64,000 nucleotides of DNA from Thermococcus nautili (GTDB lineage: Archaea; Methanobacteriota_B; Thermococci; Thermococcales; Thermococcaceae), in contig NZ_CP007264.1 of the NCBI RefSeq assembly GCF_000585495.1, positions 1,116,001 through 1,180,000 of the forward strand, written 5' to 3'. Made by a program: the position numbers and the translations under genes. The notes beneath the pieces were generated by a model, which worked only from the letters and a program-made list of their open reading frames with translations, made no database searches and was not told the origin of the DNA. Positions 46,332 through 62,406 of this stretch are shown piece by piece (within the stretch, counting starts at the first letter, position 1; each line of letters begins with the position of its first letter).

Positions 46332-47879
46332 TTAAAACTCTTCACGTGATGTTCTACCGAGTATCCTTATTAACCAGTCTACCGGCACGCCGTATTTCTC
46401 GCCCGCGCTCTTTATCAATTCAACGTCTTCTTTCTCGGGAACGCCCACGAGCACGGCGATTCCATAGAACAAGAGTGTTGCAACTGCAGTTGCAACGAGA
46501 GCTTGGATTATTCCAGTGACTTTAATGAAGTGGAATATTGCCAAGATGACCCCGGCATCTGCGAGGAGGAGGGCGTGCCGTTTTCCGTAGGGTTTAATCC
46601 CAGACCTTATTAAGACTGAGAGTTTGTACGTTGTTGTTGTCGCGTATGATGCGAAGGTTGCTATGGCGGCTCCAATCATTCCAAACGACTGAATCAGAGT
46701 GTAGTTTAGGAATATATTCAGCATTGCCCCCATAATGTCGCCTTTCATGTTGTCTACAGTTTTTCCCATCGTTACTAACGTCTGGATGAGAGGGCCGGCA
46801 ATTGCAACGAGGGCAAACCCGAGGGAGAGGATAACGAGAACCTTAGAGGCCTCCGTGTAGCTAGGTCCAAACAGCGTTCCAATGACCTGCTCGGGATATT
46901 CAACGAAGAGGAACAGTAGGGGAAAGGTCAAGAGGACTGACCATTTAGAGGTTATAGCGTAGAACCTTTCCACGAGCTCAAGTTTGCCCTCGGCGAAGAA
47001 CCCAGTAACCACTGGGGTATAAATCGTCATAAGCGCCATCACAGTCATTGAGATAAATCTCGCCAGGGGGCTGGCTGAAGTGTAAAGTCCAACCACCCCG
47101 CTTCCGAGGTAGTGTCCGAGCATCAGGGAGTCAGTCCACGTGAGAACCATGGCCACTATGTTGGACGTCAGTAAGGGGAGGGAGAAGAGAACAATAACTC
47201 CTACTAGGTCTCTGGAAAAGGAGATTCCCGGCACGATTCCTGCCCTTCTGAGGTCCCTTAGCAGCATCATCAGGATTATCAGGTACGACACGACGTAGGC
47301 AATAATAACTGACCTCAAGCTCCCTATAACGTATACCGCGAGGAATGCAAGCACCAGATACGTCAGGGGAAATCCAATTTTGCCGTAGTAGACGTATTCG
47401 CGTACCCTTTTGTACCCCTGGGCAACGGCTATGAGGGTGTTCATGAGGGCCGCAAAGGGCAGTCCCAGAAGCACGAGGGGAAGGAGGGACTTTAGCAGCT
47501 CCCTACCTTCAGGATTTGCGGTTAGCAGGCCGGCAAGCCTCTCCGTTAGTGGGAGAAGGATTGCAAGTGTCAGCGTTGATGTTATCGTTACTAGGATGAG
47601 TGTCGTTGATACGAGTTCCCCCACCCGTTTCCTGTTCTTCGTGAAGAAGTACGAGACCTGCCTTGGAAGCCCCGTTGGCAGGCCGAACATTGCCAGAACG
47701 AGTGCTATCGAAAAGACCGTGAGGGTTAGGCTATAGGCACCGTACTGTACCGGTCCGAACGTTCGTCCCACTAACGCTCTGGCGAGGAAGGCAAAAATCG
47801 CCGACGCGACGAGTCCTATTAGCGAGAGCACTCCTCCCCTTGCAACTTTCCCGAGTTCGCCCTTTATTCTATCACTCAT
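46332..47879 (-). CDS. Wzx-type polysaccharide flippase
   Basis: A 515-residue membrane protein with about 14 hydrophobic segments. It starts with the family mark GELGKVARGGVLSLIGLVASAIFAF and continues RALVGRTFGPVQYGAYSL, the MVF/MATE-like pattern of oligosaccharide flippases. It would move a lipid-linked oligosaccharide across the membrane. It lies 32 bases upstream of ugd on the same strand, so the two are probably co-transcribed. No polymerase (Wzy) was recognised. Confidence 0.9.
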   Translation of the reverse strand: MSDRIKGELGKVARGGVLSLIGLVASAIFAFLARALVGRTFGPVQYGAYSLTLTVFSIALVLAMFGLPTGLPRQVSYFFTKNRKRVGELVSTTLILVTITSTLTLAILLPLTERLAGLLTANPEGRELLKSLLPLVLLGLPFAALMNTLIAVAQGYKRVREYVYYGKIGFPLTYLVLAFLAVYVIGSLRSVIIAYVVSYLIILMMLLRDLRRAGIVPGISFSRDLVGVIVLFSLPLLTSNIVAMVLTWTDSLMLGHYLGSGVVGLYTSASPLARFISMTVMALMTIYTPVVTGFFAEGKLELVERFYAITSKWSVLLTFPLLFLFVEYPEQVIGTLFGPSYTEASKVLVILSLGFALVAIAGPLIQTLVTMGKTVDNMKGDIMGAMLNIFLNYTLIQSFGMIGAAIATFASYATTTTYKLSVLIRSGIKPYGKRHALLLADAGVILAIFHFIKVTGIIQALVATAVATLLFYGIAVLVGVPEKEDVELIKSAGEKYGVPVDWLIRILGRTSREEF

Positions 47880-61291: not shown

Positions 61292-61349
61292 CGCGATGAT
61301 GAGTGATGGGCGAACCGAAGGGTGAGGAAGGAAAGGTGATCGCTGAGCA
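61292..61349 (+). ncRNA. C/D box guide sRNA, first of tandem pair
   Basis: Box C ATGATGA (61296-61302), 12-base guide GTGATGGGCGAA, box D' CCGA (61315-61318), 3-base spacer, box C' GTGAGGA (61322-61328), 14-base guide AGGAAAGGTGATCG, box D CTGA (61343-61346). This is a complete archaeal C/D guide RNA. CCTTTTTAAGG lies about 25-30 bases before the 5' end as a TATA box. The D' guide can pair with a GTTCGCCCAT-type stretch that I recall from the A-loop region of archaeal 23S rRNA; this needs checking. Confidence 0.9.
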
Positions 61350-61380
61350 ACCCTTTTAAGCGCCCGTTCCAACTTTTTTC

Positions 61381-61435
61381 GGGATGATGAGTTCAGCCTT
61401 GTCCGAGCTGTGACGAGGGAGTGACGGACTGACCG
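61381..61435 (+). ncRNA. C/D box guide sRNA, second of tandem pair
   Basis: Box C ATGATGA (61384-61390), 12-base guide GTTCAGCCTTGT, box D' CCGA (61403-61406), 3-base spacer, box C' GTGACGA (61410-61416), 12-base guide GGGAGTGACGGA, box D CTGA (61429-61432). CCCTTTTAAGC directly after the first RNA is its own TATA box. The D' guide pairs over 10 bases with CAAGGCTGAA, which I recall from archaeal 16S rRNA just before AACTTAAAGGAATTG. It is a paralogous architecture, not a sequence copy, of the first RNA. Confidence 0.9.
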
Positions 61436-61515
61436 CCACTTTTTTAAATTAGACTAATTGAATTCGAAAACCTAATAACCTTAGGGGGCTGAAGGGAATT
61501 AGAAAGGTTTAAATA

Positions 61516-61535
61516 TTTTGTGCATATGCACAAAA
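61516..61535 (+). promoter_or_regulatory. Perfect 20-bp palindrome at the CDF gene promoter
   Basis: TTTTGTGCATATGCACAAAA is a perfect 20-base palindrome (core TGTGCATATGCACA) located directly after the TATA box GGTTTAAATA and 10 bases before the CDF start codon, overlapping the expected transcript start. The position fits a repressor operator, most simply a metal-responsive one. No matching regulator gene lies beside it. Confidence 0.7.
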
Positions 61536-61545
61536 AGGTGATACG

Positions 61546-62406
61546 ATGGAGGAGATTTACAAGCCCATATGGGTCAGCATAATCGGCAACGTCCTCCTCG
61601 CGGTTATCAAGCTCATCGTCGGTTTCCTATACTCGAGCATAGCGCTGATTTCGGACGGCGTTCACTCCCTCAGCGACGTGGTAACGAGCGTCGCCGGCTA
61701 CTTCGGCATAAAGGTGGCGTCAAAGCCTCCTGATAAAGACCACCCCTTCGGCCACTCCCGCTTCGAGCCCCTCGTGGCCTTTCTCATCGGTGAGGCCCTG
61801 CTCGTTGTTGCCTATGAAATCGGAAAGGACTCCCTGCTGAGGCTCCTCCACGGCGAGACGATAGAGGTTAACTCGGTAATGCTCGGGGTCACGGTGGTGT
61901 CAATCCTCGCGAAGGAACTGATGTTCCGCTACTCCGTCTACGTGGGCAGGAAGCTCAACAGTCAAATCCTTATTGCCGACGCCTACCACCACAGGAGCGA
62001 CGTTTTGAGCAGTGTCGCGGTTTTAATCGGCCTCGGCCTCCAGAAGTTCGGCTTCCAGTACGGCGACGCTTTGGCCGGCCTCGTCGTCGCGGTCTTCCTC
62101 GTTAAGGTTTCGCTTGAGATAATCCTTGAGAACGTCGGCTACCTGACCGGAAGGGCGCCCTCGTTCGAGGTCTGCGAGGAAATCAAGAGGCGCGCGCTGA
62201 GCGTGCCCAACGTCCTTGGAATCCACGATTTGAGGGCCCACTACGTTGGGAACAGGCTCCACGTCGAGCTCCACATCGAGGTTCCTCCAAACCTGTCCCT
62301 GAAAGAAGCCCACGACGTCAGCGAGGAGGTGAAGAAGAGGATAGAGGAAATCCCCGAGGTCGAGAGGGCCTTCGTTCACGTAGACATCAAGGGGGTTACG
62401 GAGTGA
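61546..62406 (+). CDS. Cation diffusion facilitator (CDF) metal exporter
   Basis: A 286-residue CDF transporter with six membrane segments. The metal-site Asp residues are in ALISDGVHSLSDV (helix 2) and IADAYHHRSDVLSS (helix 5, HxxxD type). The loop DKDHPFGHSRFEPL and the C-terminal cytoplasmic domain (about 205-286, with HVELHIEVP and AFVHVDI) complete the family. It would export zinc, manganese or iron by proton exchange. GGTGA lies before the ATG and a 20-bp palindrome covers its promoter, suggesting metal-dependent control. Confidence 0.93.
   Translation: MEEIYKPIWVSIIGNVLLAVIKLIVGFLYSSIALISDGVHSLSDVVTSVAGYFGIKVASKPPDKDHPFGHSRFEPLVAFLIGEALLVVAYEIGKDSLLRLLHGETIEVNSVMLGVTVVSILAKELMFRYSVYVGRKLNSQILIADAYHHRSDVLSSVAVLIGLGLQKFGFQYGDALAGLVVAVFLVKVSLEIILENVGYLTGRAPSFEVCEEIKRRALSVPNVLGIHDLRAHYVGNRLHVELHIEVPPNLSLKEAHDVSEEVKKRIEEIPEVERAFVHVDIKGVTE

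Follow-up and report, generated by a model that had tools for sequence, protein, structure and literature searches.

A conserved palindrome in the promoter of a Thermococcus nautili CDF transporter gene is a candidate operator of the DUF134 protein family

Introduction

Metal-responsive repressors of CDF genes (ArsR/SmtB, DtxR) act at palindromic operators close to where a cation exporter gene begins. Among iron-sulfur systems, IssA (formerly SipA) of Pyrococcus furiosus is a thioferrate storage protein recognized by its PF02579 domain, its Gly/Trp/Arg tail, and a cysteine, and it rises with sulfide only if iron suffices (PMC5524996); the accessible part of that account gives no operator or regulator, and no CDF gene. 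ORP/MrpORP of Desulfovibrio resembles the gene set described below in its NifX-like (PF02579) domains and MinD/Mrp P-loop ATPases, but its paper has no mention of DUF134. Here, we analyzed a perfect 20-bp palindrome in the promoter of a gene for a CDF family cation efflux transporter, located near the end of a 64,000-nucleotide stretch (the window; contig NZ_CP007264.1, G000:C1:1116001-1180000) of the 1.98-Mb genome of Thermococcus nautili (Thermococcaceae). Like the operators of the known CDF repressors, it lies close to the start of an exporter gene, but its targets are mostly iron-sulfur genes, and its reader is probably a member of another protein family, DUF134 (UPF0251; PF02001). Pfam and NCBIfam assign no function to this family ("hypothetical protein"), and the titles and abstracts of open papers retrieved under its name describe no operator or regulon for it.

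Results

The palindrome, TTTTGTGCATATGCACAAAA, is perfectly symmetric and ends exactly at positions 61516 and 61535 of the window, as the first-pass annotation had reported. It is flanked by agaaaggTTTAAATA on the left and aGGTGATacgATG on the right and lies between the TATA box TTTAAATA (61508-61515, plus strand) and the ATG start codon at 61546. An A-rich stretch resembling a B recognition element (agaaagg) precedes the TATA box, the two together covering 61501..61515, and further CDF promoters, as well as issA promoters, show the same spacing between TATA box and palindrome. In archaea, transcripts usually begin about 25 bp downstream of the TATA box; if this distance holds here, the palindrome would span the stretch from the TATA box to the start site. 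A ribosome-binding site, GGTGAT, follows at 61537..61542 (plus strand). The gene itself (61546..62406, plus strand) encodes a 286-residue protein with a Cation_efflux transmembrane domain (PF01545, E = 1.2e-50) and a ZT_dimer domain (PF16916, E = 1.9e-21), which among NCBIfam models scored above the cut-off of TIGR01297 and reached no equivalog cut-off.

The first-pass annotation had called a perfect palindrome at this exact position very unlikely by chance. As such, perfect 20-bp palindromes are expected about twice per 2 Mb (4^-10 per position), and symmetry alone is weak evidence because the window holds another one, GTTGCAACTGCAGTTGCAAC (46477-46496), within a gene for a polysaccharide-flippase-like membrane protein, where it is probably due to chance. 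What exceeds chance is the 14-bp core TGTGCATATGCACA (61519-61532). It occurs exactly twice in the genome, with no further copy within two mismatches, and the reversed pattern, used as a control, gave no match. In 94 Thermococcaceae genomes, about 230 core sites with at most one mismatch were found, versus 7 for the reversed pattern, and 90 of these genomes carry at least one such site. The counts in the genome and the family, set against the reversed-pattern controls, rule out a chance palindrome. A literature search for the exact 14-mer returned a single paper, an unrelated one on human telomeres.

The second genomic copy of TGTGCATATGCACA, at 767,608, follows a TATA-like box 19 bp upstream of an issA-like gene, the first gene of an operon in which a small Gly/Arg-rich gene separates two PF02579 (NifX-like) genes. 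The protein predicted from this first gene (L113:4042-4653; PF02579, E = 1.8e-21) has, as read from its translation, a Gly/Trp/Arg-rich tail with a cysteine and thus all the features by which IssA is recognized. This second operator copy belongs to the promoter of the issA-like gene. In issA promoters, the TATA box is immediately preceded by a further conserved element, TTAGGNNNNCCGAAAA (L113:3982-3997, L114-L142, and others), which we take to resemble a DtxR/IdeR box; it is present at genes other than issA as well and is absent from the 64-kb window.

We then assigned the genes adjoining 97 distinct fetched core sites by means of Pfam. NifX-like, MinD/Mrp, FmdE, or CDF genes accounted for 89 of the 97 sites, the other 8 being unassigned, and 46 of the 97 were at issA-type genes; the targets other than issA were further NifX-like genes, ferredoxin-type MinD/Mrp ATPases, FmdE, and CDF. 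At L143:12294, a site separates a NifX-like gene from sufC/sufB-like genes, and an exact copy in another Thermococcaceae genome (G006, L146:8328) adjoins no assignable gene. In the T. nautili genome, no other metal-transport gene bears the site, its sole other copy being that at the issA-like gene. A dedicated metal-exporter switch, as first proposed, does not fit this gene set, in which issA/sipA, NifX-like, MinD/Mrp, and FmdE genes are the commonest conserved targets, and a metal-transport regulon was rejected because the other copies sit at iron-sulfur genes. Judged from its sequence context, the palindrome is a conserved iron-sulfur operator and not a metal-transport operator.

The conservation of the site in orthologous CDF promoters was partial: it is present in 24 of 61 orthologues, those listed with sites being confined to the genus of the window and one sister genus, and absent from the other 37. 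A broken CDF copy in a further genus (G012) retains the site; MoaC, considered as a target in L125, was discarded, as there it adjoins a broken CDF copy encoded on the opposite strand. The fetched CDF orthologues that have no site usually lack the stretch with the TATA box as well, and in several of them the gene closely follows a C/D-box small RNA (sRNA) sequence. In one CDF promoter (L024), an apparently decayed copy of the operator, TGTTCATATGCGTG, was seen. Upstream of the CDF promoter of the window itself lie two tandem C/D-box sRNA genes (61292-61348 and 61380-61434, plus strand), which matched the Rfam families sR1 and sR60 with 54 and 80 bits, respectively, each exceeding the gathering score.

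The candidate reader of the site is DUF134. T. nautili has a DUF134 gene (near G000:C1 771,526, with the PF02001 match at 771559-771828, E = 3.9e-26; L113:7927-8274), about 4 kb from the second operator copy, whose product reached 92.7 bits (cut-off, 27) and carries a helix-turn-helix like that of sigma-70 region 4; the closest solved structures, all weak matches, are sigma factors. The family is found in 85 of the 94 Thermococcaceae genomes, nearly always as a single copy. Helix-turn-helix genes of the Xre and DUF2250-like types also occur near some sites; they were considered as regulators and set aside once DUF134 fitted.

We tested the match between DUF134 and the operator outside the Thermococcaceae, using the regions upstream of 159 distinct DUF134 genes that belong to Firmicutes, Bacteroidota, and other archaea, together with 627 control windows. 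The hexamer CATATG was present upstream of 45 of the 159 genes, versus 7.3 expected from shuffled sequences and 46 of the 627 control windows, and the exact core TGTGCATATGCACA upstream of 8 of the 159, versus none of the 627. Its presence followed the recognition helix. All nine bacterial DUF134 proteins with the helix SRGT, which is also that of the Thermococcaceae proteins examined, have TGTGCATATGCACA upstream of their genes (in one case with one mismatch), versus 0 of 151 proteins with other helices (Fisher p = 6.6e-15, a value that overstates the number of independent events because some of the nine bacteria are related). The SRGT set had been enlarged with a protein query blind to the DNA, which found most of its members; this query was 89% identical to the source gene and inexact at its C-terminal end, which affects the relatives found and not the DNA test.

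Other recognition helices are paired with other palindromes: ARTT and SRTT with one like TTGACATATGTCAA, SRPTFTR of Bacteroidota with TGAACATATGTTCA, SRPTFAR with TGAGAATATTCTCA, and the archaeal SQPT with TGAATATATATTCA. Upstream of many SRPT and SRQT genes no clear palindrome was found, so the rule linking helix and operator is not universal for autoregulation. The Thermococcaceae DUF134 proteins are on average 39% identical to the bacterial SRGT proteins and equally, 39%, to the SRPT proteins, and in a tree built from about 100 residues, and thus weakly resolved, they form a single clade that does not include the bacterial SRGT proteins. Since they are no closer to the SRGT than to the SRPT proteins, joint inheritance of the pairing is unlikely, and the shared SRGT helix and operator look as if they had arisen independently in Thermococcaceae and bacteria.

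In Clostridia, the operator directly follows a -10-like box, and the DUF134 gene adjoins Mrp/NifX genes. One Clostridial DUF134 gene has directly upstream a perfect 42-bp palindrome centered on TGTGCATATGCACA (L263:1790-1831), and in another archaeal family (L428) the elements upstream of a DUF134 gene run in the order seen in issA promoters: TTAGG, then a TATA box, then a palindrome-like CATATG site, TACTCATATGTGTA.

Discussion

We propose that the palindrome is probably the operator of the DUF134 regulator encoded elsewhere in the genome. A symmetric assembly of this protein, probably a dimer, would bind TGTGCATATGCACA directly through its helix-turn-helix and, at the CDF and issA promoters, where the operator lies directly after the TATA box (8-10 bp from the TATA start), would keep the transcription complex from assembling. 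With plenty of iron and sulfide, DUF134 would let go, and release would turn on IssA, the MinD/Mrp carriers, and other NifX-like proteins, joined in some members of Thermococcus by the CDF exporter. The suggestion in the first-pass annotation, which named no regulator, of an operator for a symmetric, dimeric DNA-binding protein at the CDF gene agrees with a conserved site between the TATA box and the ATG, where repressors usually act. Repression at the CDF, issA, and Clostridial promoters is suggested by the position of the site just after the TATA or -10-like box, and release by sulfide plus iron by the published induction of SipA. In Palaeococcus grown on S0, SipA ranks first among the induced genes, a neighboring Fe-Mo-cofactor-binding (NifX-like) gene second, and two CobQ/MinD genes third and fifth (PMC6981617), which are the gene kinds that bear the operator; in Thermococcus onnurineus, SipA and an Mrp/NBP35 ATPase also rise (PMC4463584). 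Induction of a CDF gene was not found in the SipA-induction papers (PMC5524996, PMC6981617, PMC4463584).

An alternative that keeps DUF134 as the reader is that it activates, or that it represses or activates depending on whether the site stands after or before the TATA box. At the MinD/Mrp genes, and likewise at the NifX-D promoters, the operator precedes the TATA box, and its effect on these genes could be other than repression; domains like sigma region 4 often contact the transcription machinery. The location of the site directly after the TATA box at CDF and issA genes and after the -10-like box in Clostridia is, however, typical of repression, and we regard activation or such a dual role as unlikely.

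Still less probable is a classical metal sensor (of the ArsR/SmtB, DtxR, or Fur type) or SurR that binds the palindrome and frees the exporter under an excess of its metal, such release being the idea of the first-pass annotation. CATATG-centered palindromes do look like operators of ArsR/SmtB repressors, and sensors of this kind commonly control CDF exporters, but the targets found here are iron-sulfur storage proteins and carriers rather than transporters, and it is the DUF134 recognition helix that predicts the operator across archaea and bacteria. As for SurR, its published motif, GTTn3AAC (PMC6316755), does not occur in 61516-61535, and SurR was rejected as the reader. An RNA or DNA hairpin, or a chance palindrome, for which the second perfect palindrome inside a gene of the window could be cited, is highly improbable, as the 14-bp sequence itself, beyond its symmetry, is kept among divergent promoters and variants with a single mismatch that breaks the pairing retain the rest of the core.

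Besides the close kinship among some of the SRGT bacteria, the site-less majority of CDF orthologues, and the operators located before the TATA box, several other observations weigh against repression by DUF134 in response to iron and sulfide. The region upstream of the T. nautili DUF134 gene, unlike that in Clostridia, lacks the operator; we make no claim of autoregulation in T. nautili, and a target need not show it. Nine Thermococcaceae assemblies gave no DUF134 match, and eight of these still have sites, most of them being incomplete drafts (with one, G067, rated 99% complete), while three assemblies with DUF134 (G053, G060, and G085) have none. Within the Thermococcaceae, such a comparison is uninformative because almost every genome has both the gene and the sites and most exceptions are drafts. 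Finally, the cysteines of the Clostridial DUF134 proteins are absent from those of Thermococcaceae, and the signal may therefore differ between the two groups.

For the family as a whole, we consider it somewhat likely that DUF134 proteins are iron-sulfur or sulfide sensors common to archaea and bacteria which control NifX/IssA-type storage proteins and Mrp/MinD carriers through CATATG-centered palindromes, with a readable code between helix and operator. The arrangement is that of an ordinary operator-regulator pair; what is new is the uncharacterized regulator family and its gene set. A DNA target, a set of genes, and a signal are thereby proposed for a widespread family lacking an assigned function, and the pairing of helix and operator yields predictions in many genomes. 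For the hyperthermophiles, DUF134 is a concrete candidate for how IssA is switched on under abundant sulfide and iron, and the inclusion of the CDF exporter in the same response suggests that part of Thermococcus couples iron-sulfur storage with metal export.
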